DNA of 64,000 nt, taken from Ruminococcus sp. (GTDB lineage Bacteria; Bacillota; Clostridia; Oscillospirales; Acutalibacteraceae). The stretch is taken from the NCBI GenBank assembly GCA_023665555.1, contig JAMPDR010000005.1, forward strand, positions 1 through 64,000. The letters run 5' to 3'. Each line of letters starts with the position of its first letter. The stretch's first letter is position 1. The translations under genes and the position numbers were made by a program. Shown here in pieces: positions 20,403 through 32,109 of this stretch. Below the pieces are notes generated by a model. It did no database searches. It was not told the origin of the DNA and saw only the letters and a list, made by a program, of their open reading frames with translations.

Positions 20403-20413
20403 TATTCCCACTC
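20403..20413. repeat. Island attachment repeat, distal copy
   Basis: TATTCCCACTC matches bases 30575-30585 at the guaA stop codon exactly. Read on the minus strand with its left flank it gives GAGTGGGAATAA, which encodes the GuaA C-terminus VEWE-stop context. This is what the unoccupied target should look like. Confidence 0.75.
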
Positions 20414-20570: not shown

Positions 20571-21104
20571 TCATAGCTTGGTGAACAAATTCAATATAAT
20601 TCGGTCACATTTGCTATTTATGTTTTCGGAATATAATCTCAAATGGCTTTCTGATTTTGATAAATAATCCAAATCACCAACTTTTACTGAAACAAAATCG
20701 TTATATCCTCTAACCTGCTCATTTATGTATGCAACCTCGTTCTTTATGTTTATATATTCGCTATATTCCTGAAGCACGGCAGTACAGTTTTTTATCATCC
20801 TAATTGTCATTGTAACTTTTTTCCGTACTTCATCCGGATCATCATCGATAGAAAATGAGTAAAAATCTGGATCACTTGTAACAGTTTGTATTTTTACCGT
20901 TATCCTCTCTATTTCGTCTTTAATTCTTCGTTCGTCGGTCTTTCTTTGTACTGCCCAAAAAGCAAGCAGAATCGCCACCAACAAGGTTAAAATTTGAGCA
21001 ATTGAGGCGTCCTAAAATGTTGGATTCTTGATAATATTGTAAATTGTTATACTAACTATACCTGTGATTAAGAAAACTTCAACGATAAGAACAACTTTTT
21101 TCAT
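20571..21104 (-). pseudogene. Membrane-anchored coiled protein interrupted by an in-frame TAG
   Basis: From the ATG at 21104, 14 bases beyond AGGTGA, the frame reads MKKVVLIVEVFLITGIVSIT then YNIIKNPTF and hits TAG at 21014-21012. It continues in the same frame with DASIAQILTLLVAILLAFWAVQRKTDERR and 120 more residues to 20571. The full-length product would be about 177 residues: two N-terminal membrane helices and a charged, coiled C-terminal region (DERRIKDEIERITVKIQTV...). TAG ends normal genes here (metA), so this is a nonsense mutation unless it is read through. It follows the DUF4325 gene directly. No family is recognised. Confidence 0.7.
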
Positions 21105-21114
21105 ATATCAGGAA

Positions 21115-21444
21115 TCACCTCTTTACATTTGCATTTGTAATATATGACTTAACTTCATTAATCAATGACGGCTCATCATTGGATATAAAGTCGAGTATAC
21201 GCATAACTTCAGCAGGACTATATATTCTTGCCAATCCTCCAAATGCTTCCTCAAGGAATGAAGTCGGATAGCCGTATCCACCATCAAAATCTATAGTCAA
21301 TGTCTGTCCTTGTTCTTTTGCATTCTCAAAATGCTTAATAAGGACATCCTCGCGAAACTCTTCGCCAGAAAACTTTCCTTCACTTTTATATCTTGCACCC
21401 GGCGTTTCAGAAAAATCTCTGCTAATTTTAATAATCATAATCAT
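21115..21444 (-). CDS. STAS-like DUF4325 protein
   Basis: The 109-residue protein matches the DUF4325 pattern: FSETPGARYKSEGKFSGEEFREDVL, then LTIDFDGGYGYPTSFLEEAFGGLARIY. This family has a STAS-like fold and is repeatedly found next to genes for GHKL-type ATPases, as here, where the ATPase gene ends 11 bp upstream. The pairing resembles anti-sigma-factor/antagonist switches (SpoIIAB/SpoIIAA logic), but partners and targets are unknown. It is part of a continuous minus-strand transcript with the restriction-modification genes. Confidence 0.82.
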   Translation of the reverse strand: MIMIIKISRDFSETPGARYKSEGKFSGEEFREDVLIKHFENAKEQGQTLTIDFDGGYGYPTSFLEEAFGGLARIYSPAEVMRILDFISNDEPSLINEVKSYITNANVKR

Positions 21445-21454
21445 CCTCCATCAC

Positions 21455-22510
21455 TTATAATGTTGAAATATCTATTTGCCAATAATATAAAGTGCCACGT
21501 AAAGGAAAGGAAACATCCTTAGATTGACAGGAATCTTCGTATACAACAACATTGGCTCTATTTGTTATTATATGCAAATTCTCAATCTTTTTTTCTTGGG
21601 CAAACTCACAAATTTTAGGCAAACCTTTTCCTCTATAATCTTTCTTTGTAGATGTTCTGAAATCTCCTTTTAAAGCTGAAACAACATATGTATATTCTCC
21701 TTTTAGCCGAAGAATATCAATCTTTTCTGCAAAATTCTTCTTTACCGTAGCTGGAATTCCTGCACCTGTATCCATGAAAGAAAAGGATATTTTTTGATTA
21801 CCGTCATATTTTGCAAAGCAGTACCATCTCGAATGTAGAACTGTTGTGTCCAACGGATAAGCGTGTCTATGGGTATTAGACATTAACTCTATAACCATAT
21901 TATACAAAAAGCTGCAGGCACGTTTATTCACATTCGCTTTTTCACAGACAAAATCAGACAACCTCTTTGCAATGACAATATCACAATCTTCTCCTGAAAC
22001 TATTTGGAGCGTATTTTCGTTTTTAATTAACGGATCTGTACCTTGGTATTTCACAAATTGGTAGAACCCTGACTCAGAGAAAAGCTTACGTACTTCATAA
22101 TTACTCGGGGCATTTCCAGAAAATGTGTATTTGTTTTGAAAATTTGAATTCAAATTATTAACTACTGCAAGCAAATACATCAGAGCGTCTATTGACAATG
22201 TCGAGACATTAGATATATCAATAAATAGTGATTTTCCAAAATTTCGCTTATCAACAATAAATGAAATTATATCATTGAAAAAAGAAATTGTTTCTTCTGG
22301 ATTATCAATAATGCTAAAGTCTAACGGGGCACGAAATTCATATTGTCTTGTTTTGCTGTTAAAAGATGATAGTTTCTTTGATTTTCTGTTATAATTGTTC
22401 TGTGCTGTTTGAGCATTTCTTTTTCTCTTTTTTCGTTTTGAACGACGAATAAGATTTTTTTCATTCTGTCGGCGTTTCCATTGCCGATATTCTGTAGTAT
22501 TAATTCTCAT
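21455..22510 (-). CDS. GHKL-type ATP-binding protein paired with DUF4325
   Basis: The 351-residue protein starts with a very basic N-terminus (residues 1-45, RRSKRKKRKRN). A STAS-like middle region follows (about 60-165; SLFIDISNVSTLSIDALMYLLAVVNN). The C-terminal histidine-kinase-type ATPase domain has the N-box VIELMSNTHRHAYP, G1 FMDTGAGIP and G2 YRGKGLPKICEFA. No histidine-phosphorylation domain or membrane segment is present, so it is not a classical sensor kinase. It lies 32 bp after the second methylase and 11 bp before the DUF4325 gene. Similar ATPase/DUF4325 pairs occur in accessory regions; a defence or switch role is inference. Confidence 0.8.
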   Translation of the reverse strand: MRINTTEYRQWKRRQNEKNLIRRSKRKKRKRNAQTAQNNYNRKSKKLSSFNSKTRQYEFRAPLDFSIIDNPEETISFFNDIISFIVDKRNFGKSLFIDISNVSTLSIDALMYLLAVVNNLNSNFQNKYTFSGNAPSNYEVRKLFSESGFYQFVKYQGTDPLIKNENTLQIVSGEDCDIVIAKRLSDFVCEKANVNKRACSFLYNMVIELMSNTHRHAYPLDTTVLHSRWYCFAKYDGNQKISFSFMDTGAGIPATVKKNFAEKIDILRLKGEYTYVVSALKGDFRTSTKKDYRGKGLPKICEFAQEKKIENLHIITNRANVVVYEDSCQSKDVSFPLRGTLYYWQIDISTL

Positions 22511-22542: not shown

Positions 22543-23289
22543 CTATTTCCTAAACACAAATAAATACTCATGCGCAATAAGTAAAAAATTATATTTAATA
22601 CTATTGGTTTTCCAATACCCCGTTGCTTTACAGTTATGCTGTTCTTTTATTATAAGCTCTTTTAATTTGAATCCAGCATCTTCGAAAATACGCATTACTT
22701 CAAAAGACATTGGTATCATATGTCCTTTTTTGCGTGTATCTCCCATAAGAACAGCGCAAAATTTATCCTTCTTCAGAACACGGTAGCTCTCAGCAGCTAC
22801 CTTTTTCATTTCTTTTAAAAAATCATTCACCTTTAGTAAAGATAAATCTTCAGGAATATTTTCGCTATACTGGATTATATCTGCATATGGAGGATGGGTG
22901 CAGATGAGATCTATGCTATTGTCCGATAAAAAGTCAAGATTTCTCGCATCGCCTTTATGAAGATGTACTTTTCCGTTAGCACCTTCATGTTCAAATGATA
23001 TCTTTTCCTCACAACGAGCCAGTGCAATATCATTTACATCAACACCGATAATGTTGCGATTGAGCAGTTTTGCCTCCACGAGAGTGGTTCCACCACCTGC
23101 AAATTGATCAAGTATTAAATCATTTTCCTTTGAATAGCGAAGCAGAATGTTGCGGGGTATGTAGGGCGACCAGTTACCGCGCCATTTTGCATCGTGAGTT
23201 GCCCAATCACCACGTTTTGGAAACGACCAATGCGTAGTCATTTCTAACTCAAAATCTTCCGGTTCCCATTTTGTTATTTTCTTCGTCAT
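22543..23289 (-). CDS. Site-specific DNA amino-methyltransferase (second methylase)
   Basis: The 248-residue protein has the SAM-binding motif LILDQFAGGGTTLVEAKLLNRNIIGVDVN followed by the catalytic motif DLICTHPPYADIIQYSE (THPPY in place of DPPY/SPPY). The order (SAM motif first) and the N-terminal block WATHDAKWRGNWSPYIPRN fit N4-cytosine or N6-adenine methylases of the TRM11-like type. It does not look like DpnA, whose catalytic motif comes first. The start overlaps the endonuclease stop by one base (ATAATGA). It probably protects a site cut by one of the two neighbouring nucleases. Confidence 0.85.
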   Translation of the reverse strand: MTKKITKWEPEDFELEMTTHWSFPKRGDWATHDAKWRGNWSPYIPRNILLRYSKENDLILDQFAGGGTTLVEAKLLNRNIIGVDVNDIALARCEEKISFEHEGANGKVHLHKGDARNLDFLSDNSIDLICTHPPYADIIQYSENIPEDLSLLKVNDFLKEMKKVAAESYRVLKKDKFCAVLMGDTRKKGHMIPMSFEVMRIFEDAGFKLKELIIKEQHNCKATGYWKTNSIKYNFLLIAHEYLFVFRK

Positions 23290-24167
23290 TATTTAAAAAC
23301 CTCGCTAATTACACCATTTTCCAAATCTTTAATGTTGTAAATGTGCTGCATAACATCATAAGTTTCTTCGAGGTTGTTTCGTGCGCTTGTCCAACCTTTT
23401 CCGTCGGTAAACCAAACGAAAGTAAAAGCGTCAATCTCTTCAGTTTCCCACGCAAGAGTTTTATAACTACGTGCGGTTTCGTTTAACTTACTACCACCGC
23501 TTCCGTAAAAGTTCGTTTCGATACCATAAATCATATTAGGTGTCTTAACGACAAAATCAAAGCGTTTTTCCGTCTTGCCTTGATTGGAAATAGCAGATAA
23601 GTCTATGTTCCATTTGTCGGTAATCTGGTGAATATACATTTCTTTGAAGTAATTAACACCTTTTATGAAACCTGCTTTTTGAATAAAGCTCTCGACCAAA
23701 TCTTCCATAAGGTGACCGCCACGATTCTTGCGACCGTTAGAATCAAGACCTGTTTCAACGCCCGTTGCATAGTCAACCAAATTATTCACGATATGATTTT
23801 CCAACAAATCAAACAATCCGGTTTCACGCATAAAATATTTGTATCTTTCGTAATGAGCGTGACTGTTAGGCGGATACTTTCCAAAATCAAATTGGAATAA
23901 ATGCCCACCATTTTCATCCTGACAGTATATTTCATTTGCTCGAACCGCTAAAAGCAGAGGGATACACTTCAGTACTTCAGGATATTTTCTCAGCAAATTC
24001 TCGAAATCAGCCTCAATATTTTTAGAGCCGATGAGAGAATTTAAGATATTAAGTTCGACCTTGATATTATCGACGTTTCTGTGAACCTTTTCAAAATCTA
24101 TGTAATAACCATAATCTGCGATACTATCACGAAAACCTGATAACCAAGTATTAAAATCTCTTGACAT
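23289..24167 (-). CDS. DpnII/MboI-family type II restriction endonuclease
   Basis: The protein is about 292 residues from the ATG at 24167 behind GGAGGAATAAGTG. Family landmarks are NSLIGSKNIEADFENLLRKYPEVLKCIPLLLAVR, the LFQFDFG segment, DYATGVETGLDSNGRKNRGGHLMEDLVE, and the nuclease-like RFDFVVKTPNMIYGIETNFYGSGGSKLNE. This matches the DpnII family, which cuts GATC when unmethylated. The adjacent Dam-type methylase is the expected protecting partner. Specificity is inferred from the family, not read from sequence. Confidence 0.87.
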   Translation of the reverse strand: MSRDFNTWLSGFRDSIADYGYYIDFEKVHRNVDNIKVELNILNSLIGSKNIEADFENLLRKYPEVLKCIPLLLAVRANEIYCQDENGGHLFQFDFGKYPPNSHAHYERYKYFMRETGLFDLLENHIVNNLVDYATGVETGLDSNGRKNRGGHLMEDLVESFIQKAGFIKGVNYFKEMYIHQITDKWNIDLSAISNQGKTEKRFDFVVKTPNMIYGIETNFYGSGGSKLNETARSYKTLAWETEEIDAFTFVWFTDGKGWTSARNNLEETYDVMQHIYNIKDLENGVISEVFK

Positions 24168-24170
24168 CAC

Positions 24171-24707
24171 TTATTCCTCCTCGCTGTTAGGCGGCACAGG
24201 TAACCCCAACTTTGTAAGCGGTATATATTCAAAATAGTAGTGGCAACGCATACTTATGATATAATCCAAAACATCCTTGTATTTAGGATCTTTGAACCAC
24301 TCCGAAAGCAGATAGATGTATTCAACATCAATATTGAGCTGTGCCATCAACTTCTGATATTGCTTTCTTTTAAAATCACAAGTCTGCAATTTTTCATCAA
24401 CAGAACCTGCGACTTGCTGATATTTACATTCGATAATAAAAAGCGTGTTATTGATGATTACATAAATGCTGTCATCTGGCAGAAGCTTTTTGGAAATAAT
24501 CTTTGTCCAATCAACGCCGACTTCCTTTAAATATCTATAAAATCCGTGTTTTTTAAATATGCAAGCAACTTTTTCACCATTATAAAACACAATGCCATCA
24601 GTCACACAATATCCCTCTTGACTATTTAAGAAGGTTGCCAAATCAGTTTTTCCCTCAAAGACAAGTCCCGTTTTGGTGTTTCCTCCACCTTTTCCGTTCT
24701 TTATCAT
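24171..24707 (-). CDS. Predicted PD-(D/E)XK-type nuclease, unnamed family
   Basis: The protein is about 178 residues from the ATG at 24707 (AAGGAG upstream). It opens with NGKGGGNTKTGLVFEGKTDL, a glycine-rich block I associate with restriction-enzyme-like proteins. LLPDDSIYVIINNTLFIIECKYQQVAGSVDEKL follows, placing D...ECK in a PD-(D/E)XK arrangement near residues 75-100. It lies between the Dam-type methylase (15 bp) and the DpnII gene (3 bp). It could be a second restriction enzyme, a subunit, or a nicking partner; I cannot assign a specificity. Confidence 0.65.
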   Translation of the reverse strand: MIKNGKGGGNTKTGLVFEGKTDLATFLNSQEGYCVTDGIVFYNGEKVACIFKKHGFYRYLKEVGVDWTKIISKKLLPDDSIYVIINNTLFIIECKYQQVAGSVDEKLQTCDFKRKQYQKLMAQLNIDVEYIYLLSEWFKDPKYKDVLDYIISMRCHYYFEYIPLTKLGLPVPPNSEEE

Positions 24708-24722
24708 AAATTCCAATTCTCC

Positions 24723-25793
24723 TTAAAAATTACTAATAAGCAACTCTTTGATTTTTCCTCTTGCTTCGCTATTGCAGTTAATCAAACGTGTTGCTTCAAC
24801 TCGTTTGATTTTATGAGCCGAATAAATGTTATCAAAGAAATCATCTTCTGTATTTGAGTTCTTTGGATCGGAATTACTAATTACGACCTTTGCGCCTTTT
24901 CTGTGCATATCATCAACAAATCGAGCAAGTTCAATCTGTTCTTCATCATTAAACAAGTTCTCAGTATATGCGGTAAAACTTGCTGTATCTGTAATAGGTC
25001 TGTATGGCGGATCAAAATAGACAAAGGTATTTTCGTCAATAAAATCAGCCGACTCTCTGTAATCTCCGCATACAATATTAACTTTCTGCAATTTCTCTGA
25101 TACTGCTCTGAGATTGTTTTCATCACAAATCATAGGATTTTTATATGCACCCATAGGAACATTAAACAATCCTTTTTTGTTTACACGGAACAATCCATTA
25201 AAGCAAGTTTTGTTTAAGAATATCATCAATGCTGCTTTTTCAATATTGATGTTTTCGTTTCCATTAACTTTCAAATCATTGAAACACTCACGCTTTTCCA
25301 TATAATATGCTTTACGATTATATGTATCCAATGGAATAAACTTATTCTGCATAGTATCGAGCATTTCAATTAAAGCATCTATATCATCACGAATAATGCG
25401 ATAGGTATTGATAAGTTCGGCATTAATGTCGCTGATATAAACTTCTTCTAAATCAAATTTACTGAGGATATCAAACAAAACTGCACCGCCACCAACAAAT
25501 GGCTCTGCATACTTTTTAATATTACCGTTGGCAAATGGATAATAGCGTTCAATTTCTTTAAGGAGCTGACCTTTACCGCCTGCCCACTTCAAGAAAGGTT
25601 TAACCGTTTTTCCTTCGCTTTTATTGTATCTTGTACTTCTTGCATCTATCGGTTTTTCTGCCGAAGTAGGTATAATCCACATATTACCTACCATAATTGC
25701 CTCGGCAATTCTTTGTTCAGAACAAAGAACGGCTACTCTCCTTTGAGAAATGCCCCACTTATCAGCGGCTTCTCTTGCAGACATAAATTCCAT
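24723..25793 (-). CDS. Dam-type adenine methylase with N-terminal HTH
   Basis: The protein is 356 residues. Residues 1-55 form a MerR/excisionase-like helix-turn-helix (SAREAADKWGISQRRVAVLCSEQRI...MWIIPTSAEKP). Residues 70-356 are a D12-class N6-adenine methylase with FLKWAGGKGQLLKEI (SAM motif) and FVYFDPPYRPI (catalytic DPPY). Target adenine methylation of GATC is expected from pairing with DpnII. The fused HTH could let the methylase bind its own promoter, a job done by separate C proteins elsewhere; that is inference. AGGAGG precedes the ATG. It is the first gene of the cargo operon. Confidence 0.88.
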   Translation of the reverse strand: MEFMSAREAADKWGISQRRVAVLCSEQRIAEAIMVGNMWIIPTSAEKPIDARSTRYNKSEGKTVKPFLKWAGGKGQLLKEIERYYPFANGNIKKYAEPFVGGGAVLFDILSKFDLEEVYISDINAELINTYRIIRDDIDALIEMLDTMQNKFIPLDTYNRKAYYMEKRECFNDLKVNGNENINIEKAALMIFLNKTCFNGLFRVNKKGLFNVPMGAYKNPMICDENNLRAVSEKLQKVNIVCGDYRESADFIDENTFVYFDPPYRPITDTASFTAYTENLFNDEEQIELARFVDDMHRKGAKVVISNSDPKNSNTEDDFFDNIYSAHKIKRVEATRLINCNSEARGKIKELLISNF

Positions 25794-26342: not shown

Positions 26343-27326
26343 TCATCTTTCATTTTGATTATTCCTAAAGCGTTTATCATGCTGTTTGGACTGTGTTATT
26401 ATTGATTTTGCCTGCTCTAATAGCTTGTCAATTTGCGCATTACCGAACACCTTGCGGAGCAATTTATATTCGCCAACTTGTTTTTCTAACATTTGATTTC
26501 GCTCGGATAAAGTATCATTTTCACGAGATAATTGCTGTGATTTTGCCTTTTCAATACCGTACCATAATCTTTCACTATCAAGCTGGGTTTTGAACTCAAA
26601 ACACCTTTTTACTGCTGTTTTTGCAAGTTTGATAAGCTTCTGTATTAACGGTTCAACAAACCTTATCTTGTAATTTTTCGCTGTCATCAAAGGCGGAGGA
26701 TCAGGCAATTGATACTCTTCTTCCTCATAAAACACATTGGAGATTTCTTCGATTTCATCCTCATATTCCTTGAAATCTGAAATTTTAGAATTCAATTCAT
26801 CAACTTTTATTTGCAATTTTTCAGATTCTTTTTCAAGTGTTTTAACTTCTTCGGCACGCATTTTCTTCTCATAATCATAAACAGATAAATGTTTTTCATG
26901 CGTGCCTTTTTGCTCCCACTCAATGTCATATTTCTGCATAACTTTTGACAGTTCTTCTTTCTCTGATTGTATCCATTGATTCCATTCCGTATCGTGTTTA
27001 GAACCACCGACAAATCCCTGTTTAGCAAGTGCTTGTTTGAGGGATACACGGGTATCAAGTCCACGCTTGCTTCCTGTTGTGAACGGTACAAAATCAATGT
27101 GCAAATGCGGCGTTGCTTCGTCCATGTGCAGGTGTGCTGAGAATACATAGAGGTTAGGATTTCTCGCTTGAAAGCCTTGATAATACTCATCAAGCATCTT
27201 TTTTGCAAGTAACCCATTATCGCCTTGCGCATTCATATCTTCACAATTTCCTATCTGCAAAATGATCTCATGAAACGGTTTTTGCCTACTTTCGGAGAAC
27301 CTACGAACAAGTAAGTTCCCCTGCAA
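26343..27326 (-). CDS. 5'-truncated MobA/Pre-type relaxase
   Basis: The frame gives 327 residues, but relaxase homology begins only near KPFHEIILQIGN (about base 27285). The metal-binding motif HLHMDEATPHLHIDFVPF is present, followed by FVGGSKHDTEWNQWIQSEKEEL and a long coiled C-terminal half (150-300). The first hundred or so residues of a full Mob/Pre protein are missing. They have been replaced by bases belonging to the rep' gene in another frame. The likely result is a protein unable to nick oriT, although parts of the active site remain. Confidence 0.75.
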   Translation of the reverse strand: MQGNLLVRRFSESRQKPFHEIILQIGNCEDMNAQGDNGLLAKKMLDEYYQGFQARNPNLYVFSAHLHMDEATPHLHIDFVPFTTGSKRGLDTRVSLKQALAKQGFVGGSKHDTEWNQWIQSEKEELSKVMQKYDIEWEQKGTHEKHLSVYDYEKKMRAEEVKTLEKESEKLQIKVDELNSKISDFKEYEDEIEEISNVFYEEEEYQLPDPPPLMTAKNYKIRFVEPLIQKLIKLAKTAVKRCFEFKTQLDSERLWYGIEKAKSQQLSRENDTLSERNQMLEKQVGEYKLLRKVFGNAQIDKLLEQAKSIITQSKQHDKRFRNNQNER

Positions 27327-27901: not shown

Positions 27902-28981
27902 TCATTCACCACTCTTTCTTAAACTATTTAACTTTTCGGCCATATCGATTTGCGTTGATGGAAACATATGGGCATAATTGTAAGTGATATTTATACTTTC
28001 GTGACCTACACGGTCAGCAATTGCTACCGCAGAATATCCCATTTCAATCAAAAGTGATATATGGCTATGCCGCAAATCATGAATGCGAATTCGCTTTACA
28101 CATGCCGCTTTAGAACCTCTGTCCATCTCGTGATGAAGATAGCTTTTCGTAAGTTCAAATATTCTGTCGTTCTTACCTACTCCATAAAGCTGTTTGAGAT
28201 AGTCCTGCATTTCTTCAACAAGGAAATCCGGCATTTTTATTACACGATTGCTCTTTTGTGTTTTCGGATCAGTAATTACATCTCGTCCGTTTAATCGTTG
28301 ATAAGATTTTGTTATTGATACCGTGCCATGCTCGAAATCAAAATCAGCAGGTGTTAAAGCTAATAGTTCTCCCTCTCTGATACCGCACCAATACAACATT
28401 TCAAAAGCGTAATATGAGCGAGGTTTATCCATCATTTCTTCTGCAAATTTGGCATACTCCTCCTGTGTCCAAAATTGCATTTCTTTGCTTTTTGCTTTGC
28501 CCATATTTCCAACTTTAGCTGCCGGGTTTTCCTTGAGTCCGTAAAACTTTACAGCGTGGTTGAAAATAGCGCTAAGTTGATTGTGTAGCGTTTTCAGATA
28601 TACCGGTGAATACGCCTTTCCGCTTTTACTCTTGATTTTTAGCATCTCATTCTGCCAAGCGATAATATCTTTCGGCTGGATTTCACTAATCCTACGCTTT
28701 GCAAAGTACGGCAAGATTTTTGTACGTATTATATGTTCCTTTGTATGCCAAGTATTTTCTTTAATGCGATTTTTCATATCTGCCGTATAAGTTTCTACAA
28801 AGCTTTCAAATGTCATGTCAAGGTTAGATTGTACCTTATTAAGTTGATCTCGCTCCCAAGCTTGTGCTTCTTTTTTGGTCGCAAAGCCACGTTTAGTAGT
28901 CTGCTTTCGATTGCCTTGCCAATCGGTATAACGATAATATACCTTCCATGTGTTTGTCTTTTGTTCCTTGTAAACCGCCAT
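27902..28981 (-). CDS. Tyrosine site-specific integrase
   Basis: The 359-residue protein has three parts. An N-terminal arm-binding region (1-60, WQGNRKQTTKRGFATKKEAQAWERDQL) is followed by a SAM-like core-binding domain (65-160). The catalytic domain (170-355) has R in WCGIREGELLALTP, K after it, HDLRHSHISLLIEMGYSAVAIADRVGH (H-x-x-R...H) and the nucleophile Tyr in YNYAHMFPS. It is complete and of the Tn916/phage-integrase group. It is predicted to recombine the 11-bp GAGTGGGAATA core at guaA. Confidence 0.92.
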   Translation of the reverse strand: MAVYKEQKTNTWKVYYRYTDWQGNRKQTTKRGFATKKEAQAWERDQLNKVQSNLDMTFESFVETYTADMKNRIKENTWHTKEHIIRTKILPYFAKRRISEIQPKDIIAWQNEMLKIKSKSGKAYSPVYLKTLHNQLSAIFNHAVKFYGLKENPAAKVGNMGKAKSKEMQFWTQEEYAKFAEEMMDKPRSYYAFEMLYWCGIREGELLALTPADFDFEHGTVSITKSYQRLNGRDVITDPKTQKSNRVIKMPDFLVEEMQDYLKQLYGVGKNDRIFELTKSYLHHEMDRGSKAACVKRIRIHDLRHSHISLLIEMGYSAVAIADRVGHESINITYNYAHMFPSTQIDMAEKLNSLRKSGE

Positions 28982-30573: not shown

Positions 30574-32109
30574 CTATTCCCACTCAACCGTTCCGGGCGG
30601 CTTTGATGTGATATCATACACTACTCTGTTGACATGTTCAACCTCGTTAGTGATTCGGTTTGACACTTTTGCAAGCAGATCATACGGAATCTGCGCCCAG
30701 TCTGCGGTCATAAAGTTGTCGGTAGTAACTGCTCTAAGCGCAATAAGATGGTCATATGTTCTGTGATCGCCCATAACACCTACAGTTTTAACATCAGGCA
30801 GAACTGCAAAGAATTGTGAAAGTTCTTTTTCATAGCCGCTTGTTGACATTTCCTCACGGAAAATTGCATCTGCTTCTTGAAGGATTTTAACCTTTTCTTC
30901 AGTAATTTCGCCGATGATCCTTACACCTAATCCCGGACCCGGAAACGGCTGACGCCAAACAAGTTCTTTCGGAATTCCAAGCTTTTCGCCTACTGCACGG
31001 ACTTCATCCTTGAACAGATCGCCAAGCGGCTCAATGACATCATCAAACTTGATATCATCAGGCATTTTCACCTTGTTATGGTGCGTTTTTATTGTATCAG
31101 CTTTGCCCTTGCCACTCTCGATTCTATCAGGATAAATTGTGCCTTGTGCGAAGAATCCGCCATCAGCTTCCTCACGGATTTTGTTCCAAAATACACGATA
31201 GAACTCTTCGCCAATGATTTTTCTCTTCTTTTCCGGATCGCTGACACCTTTAAGTTTTGAAATAAACTCATGTCCGCAATTAACTCTGACAAATTTCATG
31301 TCGAACAACTTTGTGAATGTTTCTTCAACAAAATCGCCCTCGTTCTTACGCATAAGACCCTGGTCAACAAAAATGCATGTCAGCTGATCGCCTACTGCTC
31401 GGCTGAGAAGTCCGGCTGCAACTGAACTGTCAACACCGCCCGATAAGCCGAGAACTACTTTTTTGCTGCCGATTTTTTCGCGAAGTTTCTGAACAGTATC
31501 CTCAATGAAACTGTCCATTACCCAATCACCTTTACAACCGCAAATATCAAAAACAAAATTGTGAAGCATCTGACTGCCGAATTGACTGTGTGTAACCTCA
31601 GGGTGGAACTGAACAGCATATACGTTCTTTTCTCTATTTTCCATTGCTGCACAGGGGCAATCGTTCGTTGTGCCGATAATTTTATATCCTTCAGGAGCTT
31701 TTGCAATGAAATCCGTGTGACTCATCCAAACTATGCTATTTTCGGGAACATCGCGGAAAAGCACCGAAGAAGTATCTGCCTTAAGGTCAATTTTACCGTA
31801 TTCAGAAACCGGCGCAGTTTCAACAACTCCGTCTTCCATCCACGCGATAAGCTGACTTCCATAGCAAATACCGAGAACGGGGATTCCGAGAGATAAAATT
31901 TCCTTTGTGTAATGAGGACTGGTTTCATCATAAACGGAATTCGGACCGCCTGTAAAGATAATTCCTTTGTAATTACCCTGTTTGATTTTTTCTATATCGT
32001 CTTCGTATGAAAGAATTTCTGCATAAACATGAAAATCTCTCACGCGGCGAGCAATAAGCTGATTATACTGACCGCCGAAATCAAGAACAAGTATCTTCTC
32101 TTTAGACAT
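30574..32109 (-). CDS. guaA: GMP synthase (glutamine-hydrolysing)
   Basis: The 511-residue protein starts at the ATG at 32109 behind GGAGGTAAAT. The class-I amidotransferase domain (1-190) has the catalytic Cys in GICYGSQ and the pair HPEVTHSQ. The ATP-pyrophosphatase domain (about 205-390) has the P-loop [18 protein letters not shown]. The dimerisation domain ends with PPGTVEWE. It converts XMP to GMP. purA lies upstream on the same strand. The last codons GAGTGGGAATAG overlap the island attachment core, and the coding sequence is intact after integration (only TAA changed to TAG). Confidence 0.97.
30575..30585. repeat. Island attachment repeat at the guaA stop
   Basis: TATTCCCACTC, identical to 20403-20413, overlaps the stop codon and last codons of guaA. 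Integration here preserves the reading frame. Confidence 0.75.

Follow-up and report, generated by a model that had tools for sequence, protein, structure and literature searches.

The K-S-M locus and the element that carries it

The window (the whole stretch of DNA analyzed, 64,000 nucleotides) contains three closely packed genes, here named K, S, and M, which follow a set of DpnII-type restriction-modification genes inside an integrated element. The relevant features are listed by position.

10.2 kb, at the 3' end of guaA: mobilizable element, recognized by integrase, Mob, and NikA genes and flanking repeats
20403-20413, plus strand: left attachment repeat TATTCCCACTC, exact copy
20571-21104, minus strand: M, membrane-protein gene, interrupted in the window copy (family HMM and alignment to L016)
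21012-21014, minus strand: in-frame TAG, codon 31 of M
21115-21444, minus strand: S, DUF4325 STAS-like protein, 109 aa (PF14213, E 2.7e-13)
21455-22510, minus strand: K, STAS+GHKL protein kinase-like ATPase, 351 aa, with a basic N-terminal helix
22543-23289, minus strand: DpnA-like N6/N4 DNA methyltransferase (PF01555, E 5.7e-24; PADLOC MTase_II, E 2.2e-154)
23289-24170, minus strand: DpnII restriction endonuclease (PF04556, E 3e-112)
24171-24716, minus strand: PD-(D/E)XK nuclease-superfamily protein (PF20472, E 2.4e-8)
24723-25793, minus strand: Dam-family adenine methyltransferase (DpnM-like) with N-terminal HTH (TIGR00571, 290.6 bits, cut-off 114.85)
26343-27326, minus strand: Mob/Pre relaxase of the element (PF01076, E 5.7e-12)
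27902-28981, minus strand: tyrosine integrase of the element
30575-30585, plus strand: right attachment repeat TATTCCCACTC, exact copy, covering the last guaA codons

The original prediction placed the genes in an integrated island, and this was borne out by the presence of TATTCCCACTC at both ends, the position at the 3' end of guaA, and a NikA gene alongside those for the integrase and the Mob/Pre relaxase. The repeat is short (11 bp, with a mean of 0.66 chance matches per window when one mismatch is allowed), and both copies are exact and lie at the expected ends of the element. The purA-guaA arrangement is conserved in the genus, where an empty-site comparison did not find the left flank of the element adjoining guaA. 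L179 and L180, from two congeneric relatives, have a second, diverged GuaA C-terminal-like stretch adjoining guaA. A query with the ATPase alone, run against viral contigs, phages, and the 197 nearest genomes, gave no close relative besides the window copy, which suggests that the cassette is uncommon in the family of the host and arrived there by horizontal transfer.

K and S are present as predicted and are separated by 10 bp. The trio lies 3' of the DpnII-type set, on the same strand and after a gap of 32 bp. The PD-(D/E)XK gene, found between those of the Dam-type methyltransferase and the DpnII endonuclease, is an unusual extra member of a DpnII operon. Strong-stemmed terminator-like sites on the minus strand flank the DpnII and K-S-M stretch (25946-25915 and 20345-20313) and make a single transcription unit plausible, although every such site is identified by consensus match alone, and a weaker one occurs inside the stretch at 24634-24613. 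Transcription of the trio with the DpnII system, as originally proposed, fits the spacing and strand seen in the window, but the arrangement is not general for the K-S-M family.

The K and S proteins and the interrupted M gene

K was expected to be a soluble GHKL ATPase with a basic N-terminus, a STAS-like middle, and no histidine-phosphotransfer domain, and each of these features was found. The AlphaFold2 model (pLDDT 93) comprises a basic helix (residues 6-44), a beta-alpha STAS-like region (approximately 56-150), and a GHKL domain (166-351). Lys and Arg make up 0.40 of the first 45 residues (family median 0.33 across 136 proteins). In a search for HisKA/HPt phospho-histidine domains there was no HisKA match in K, and the region preceding the GHKL domain is STAS-like. 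The best solved structural match is SpoIIAB (Z 12.7 over 136 residues, rmsd 2.9), with RsbW also matched, and K has the GHKL fold, the N-box Glu/Asn, and the G1 and G2 boxes typical of SpoIIAB; E208, N212, D247, G249, and G296 are each kept in at least 135 of the 136 proteins. At L007, on an Acinetobacter plasmid, K is truncated and adjoins ISAba14 copies.

The VapKSC system, published in June 2026 (PMC13373217), consists of the VapK kinase, the VapS STAS antitoxin, and the VapC PIN toxin/RNase. The K profile aligns with VapK over 250 columns (hhalign E 6e-12). Single-stranded DNA is sensed by W68 of CapK and F54 of VapK (PMC13373217); the equivalent residue was sought in K and could not be identified. 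The modeled basic helix of K suggests nucleic-acid sensing.

The top PDB match of the S profile is Escherichia VapS (9z7o, E 0.0054), with the VapS serine aligned to position 61 of S. The VapS of a Deinococcus vapKSC locus (L176), itself a PF14213 protein (E 1.5e-14), gives the same acceptor alignment at E 1.5e-6. Thr61 of the window S thus aligns with the VapS phospho-acceptor. Among the 173 loci defined below, position 61 is Ser or Thr in 147 and position 62 is Ser in 166; in most of the 26 loci with another residue at position 61, Ser62 is kept. From these alignments, T61 and S62 are candidate phospho-acceptors. S is a protein of approximately 110 aa that consists of a STAS domain only, without a winged helix-turn-helix (wHTH), and is for this reason nearer to the inhibitor VapS than to the repressor CapS. 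A VapS query against viral contigs gave no matches. In four uncultured Bacilli (L065, L069, L072, and L037), a diverged DUF4325 protein is encoded behind murE, and both candidate acceptor residues are absent in three of the four loci; these proteins are perhaps a different, maybe housekeeping, branch.

The third gene had been predicted to be a two-helix protein encoded by an ORF at 20984-20571, which proved to be a partial gene. Its TTG start lies inside helix 2 and is not preceded by a Shine-Dalgarno sequence. The expected start is the ATG at 21104, preceded by AGAGGTGA, which overlaps the stop of S; from there M reads MKKVVLIVEVFLITGIVSITIYNIIKNPTF (30 codons), meets TAG at 21014-21012, and continues as an open frame to 20571. 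The closest relative of the locus is in a Lachnospiraceae genome (L016; identity 64% for K, 74% for S, and 53% for M), whose M is uninterrupted, aligns end to end across the window TAG, and has two TM helices. Most close relatives have an aromatic residue at the position of the TAG, and none has a stop there. Read-through of the TAG as pyrrolysine was rejected, as no pyrrolysyl-tRNA synthetase scored over the cut-off in the genome and the relatives lack that stop. In-frame stops within an otherwise intact M are also found at L059 (2116-2637) and L075, hinting at repeated loss of the effector.

Because M is cut by the TAG, the window copy of K-S-M is probably inactive or recently inactivated, as judged from the sequence. 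In all likelihood this one copy is a decaying remnant, in which K and S have nothing left to control; the stop at codon 31, for which no suppressor is expected, the intact M of the closest relative, and the stops at L059 and L075 all point in this direction. Against decay, the rest of M is intact, and its pN of 0.26 versus pS of 0.92 downstream of the TAG indicates purifying selection until recently. The TAG could also be an assembly or strain-level error, given that the genome is fragmented.

The intact M of L016 was modeled with a pLDDT of 94 as two TM helices, of which the second reaches into the cytosol, plus a helical bundle on the cytosolic side; from its positive charges, the topology is probably N-in. 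In proteobacteria and phages, M mostly has one predicted TM helix. A comparison of M with PDB folds gave no match at E ≤ 0.001, which is not proof of a new fold, and no structural relative of M establishes that it forms a pore. A SLATT-like assignment was discarded, the match being weak (E 0.66) and not repeated across the family. Uncharacterized orf1 of phage HP1 (L198:1698-2315), which closes the HP1 cI operon, resembles M in its predicted fold (BFVD E 4.6e-3); no relationship is claimed, since HMM scores are at noise level and neither K nor S adjoins it.

Conservation and genomic context of K-S-M

Loci were chosen by the DUF4325 motif alone, giving 80 of 340 genome loci and 80 of 207 IMG/VR loci, which together with 12 plasmid or phage records and the window make up the 173 loci. 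The K-S-M architecture is present in 147 of the 173 (63/80 from genomes, 76/80 from viral contigs, 7/12 from plasmid or phage records, and the window), a figure that describes co-occurrence within one branch and not all DUF4325 proteins, as the selection motif came from K-S-M members. Among the loci without the full trio, several are cut off by the end of a contig or encode a membrane ORF that has diverged. K-S-M is spread over many phyla, plasmids, and viral contigs. An iterated HMM of M, begun with 12 clostridial seeds, matched 152 proteins among all ORFs of the loci, and 148 of these are encoded directly after S. Seeds from phages converge on the same family, the two profiles aligning with an E of 6.5e-28 that rests partly on members shared after iteration. 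The conservation of the trio is far beyond chance, and the membrane gene anticipated as its co-conserved third member is confirmed by the 147 loci and by the position of M. By these profiles, M is a single, new membrane-protein family.

A wider search with PF14213 across 398 genomes of the phylum found stand-alone proteins, HTH-GHKL-DUF4325 fusions, and VapK/VapS-like pairs, so that K-S-M is one branch of a larger superfamily. The same genomes contained one further basic-tailed K with S and a two-helix protein (L217). At that locus (L217:233-2381), the protein after K and S is 204 aa long and is unmatched by the M profile; it may represent another family of membrane effectors using this switch.

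Upstream of K, the viral contigs most often encode a CI-like repressor (at least 20/57 by one PHROG family). With an iterative HMM, a CI-like repressor is the first gene upstream on the same strand in 27 of 71 loci and lies within two genes in 35 of 71. For the genome loci, PADLOC models matched 10 of the 20 large immediate neighbors tested; among 20 genes lying more than 4 kb off in loci of the same kind, they matched 3 (Fisher p 0.02, and 0.05 once three related loci are collapsed). The matched neighbors include type I restriction, Shedu, OLD/GajA-like proteins, a UvrD-like helicase, the candidate systems PDC-S02 and PDC-S27, and a methylase. Enrichment of defense genes beside K-S-M, proposed as a check in the original prediction, is suggestive rather than strong, the control being small (20 versus 20). 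K, S, and M themselves gave no significant match to any PADLOC 2.0.0 model. Toxin-antitoxin genes sometimes adjoin the trio (MNT/HEPT on Leptospira p4, RelE/NadS in Acinetobacter, and PemK in Vibrio), and the trio also occurs in prophages and plasmids with no restriction-modification neighbor.

A proposed phospho-switch and its relation to known systems

Starting from the conservation of the genes, the homology of K with VapK and of S with VapS, the GHKL motifs, the acceptor position, the single M family, and the prophage and defense context, we propose, with a probability of roughly 0.58, that K-S-M works as a phospho-switch of three genes with a membrane effector, most likely for abortive infection or superinfection exclusion. 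At rest, S would bind and restrain the cytosolic bundle of M. The trigger for K may be infection or DNA damage, probably in the form of nucleic acid, sensed via the basic N-terminal helix or the STAS-GHKL groove. Acting as a kinase, K would then phosphorylate S at the Thr61/Ser62 pair, and phosphorylated S would release M, which would oligomerize or open and impair the membrane. M would in this way be a membrane toxin inhibited by S, and the anti-phage activity would consist of stopping phage growth at the expense of the cell. Restraint of M by S and phosphorylation of S by K would be the simplest transfer from VapKSC, because the homology of K and S spans their whole domains and S lacks a DNA-binding domain. 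The original view of a switch-like set, one that includes a membrane component and sits where defense genes lie, is well supported by the 147/173 loci, the CI neighbors, the 10/20 versus 3/20 comparison, and the VapK/VapS homology.

The trio might instead serve retention rather than defense, as a toxin-antitoxin or maintenance module in which M is a membrane toxin, S the antitoxin, and K the protein that frees M under stress. Its presence on plasmids and prophages, sometimes adjoining toxin-antitoxin genes, would be in keeping with this, and VapKSC itself is framed as a toxin-antitoxin system (PMC13373217). We nevertheless consider it unlikely, as a dedicated kinase would be superfluous for plain addiction, and the cI-adjacent position and the restriction, Shedu, and OLD neighbors fit defense. 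On our analysis the two readings overlap, VapKSC being both. More doubtful still is a role in prophage regulation, with the trio tuning lysogeny or induction to DNA damage or membrane state and the non-prophage copies as remnants: the 35/71 viral loci in which the trio is co-oriented with a CI-like repressor agree with it, but the trio is also found on plasmids, in an IME, and in chromosomal defense neighborhoods of many phyla, with no phage repressors. Least probable is CapKS-like control by K and S of the neighboring restriction operon or of other genes, M serving as an anchor or sensor in the membrane. Although 88 of the 443 capKS loci directly follow a restriction-modification system (PMC13373217), as in the window, S lacks the wHTH of CapS, the window trio is 3' of the restriction-modification genes in the same apparent operon, and prophages and plasmids retain K-S-M with no such neighbor.

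The defense phospho-switch, which we prefer, can be stated more broadly, as an evenly balanced proposition: K-S-M would be an immune system, widespread and carried largely by prophages, whose GHKL kinase senses nucleic acid and, by phosphorylating a STAS antitoxin, unleashes a membrane effector, a RexAB-like exclusion logic operated via phosphorylation, and the kinase-STAS pair would be a general sensor with exchangeable effectors (repressor, RNase, or membrane protein). If true, the switch described in 2026, with a DNA repressor or an RNase as its output, would have a membrane effector as well, and DUF4325, which two papers of the literature searched mention once each, would gain a function together with a large unannotated membrane-protein family. 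It would also account for unannotated genes adjoining CI repressors in many temperate phages, and the modularity of the sensor pair would be directly testable by effector swaps. The module had been called undescribed; the kinase-STAS switch is in fact known from CapKS and VapKSC (PMC13373217), but the literature searched, which covered few subscription journals or preprints and named VapKSC in that one paper, yielded no membrane-effector version and no experiment on a K-S-M operon, and a prior description of K-S-M elsewhere is possible.

K-S-M is most like VapKSC, which protects against phage Bas42 and loses protection when K, S, or C is mutated (PMC13373217). The two share the order of kinase, STAS, and effector genes, tight spacing, mobile and defense contexts, homologous STAS+GHKL kinases, and S proteins of the same Pfam family with Ser or Thr at the acceptor position. 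They differ in that VapC is a PIN nuclease, whereas the third protein of K-S-M belongs to a TM and helical-bundle family with no PIN match, and in the basic N-terminal helix of K, which is absent from the VapK compared (L176). CapK, when bound to ssDNA, phosphorylates CapS at a STAS serine (PMC13373217). CapK/CapS and K-S-M both pair a STAS+GHKL kinase with a STAS substrate and can sit directly behind restriction-modification genes. CapK has an N-terminal HTH in place of the basic helix of K, CapS has a wHTH and represses DNA whereas S has no wHTH, and a third gene is fixed in K-S-M.

WonAB (an ABC ATPase) and VcSduA (a fusion of Shedu and GHKL), candidates taken from the literature, were set aside for their different architecture. 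The SpoIIAB/SpoIIAA and RsbW/RsbV partner switches, which control sigma factors, share the GHKL fold and the kinase-STAS acceptor logic; no membrane protein of the M kind is known in SpoIIAB or RsbW operons. Phage lambda RexA/RexB, a proposed sensor of a DNA intermediate acting on a membrane effector, sits behind cI, as K-S-M does behind CI-like repressors. RexAB consists of two genes with no kinase/STAS pair, and its likeness to K-S-M is one of position and proposed logic, with no homology expected.
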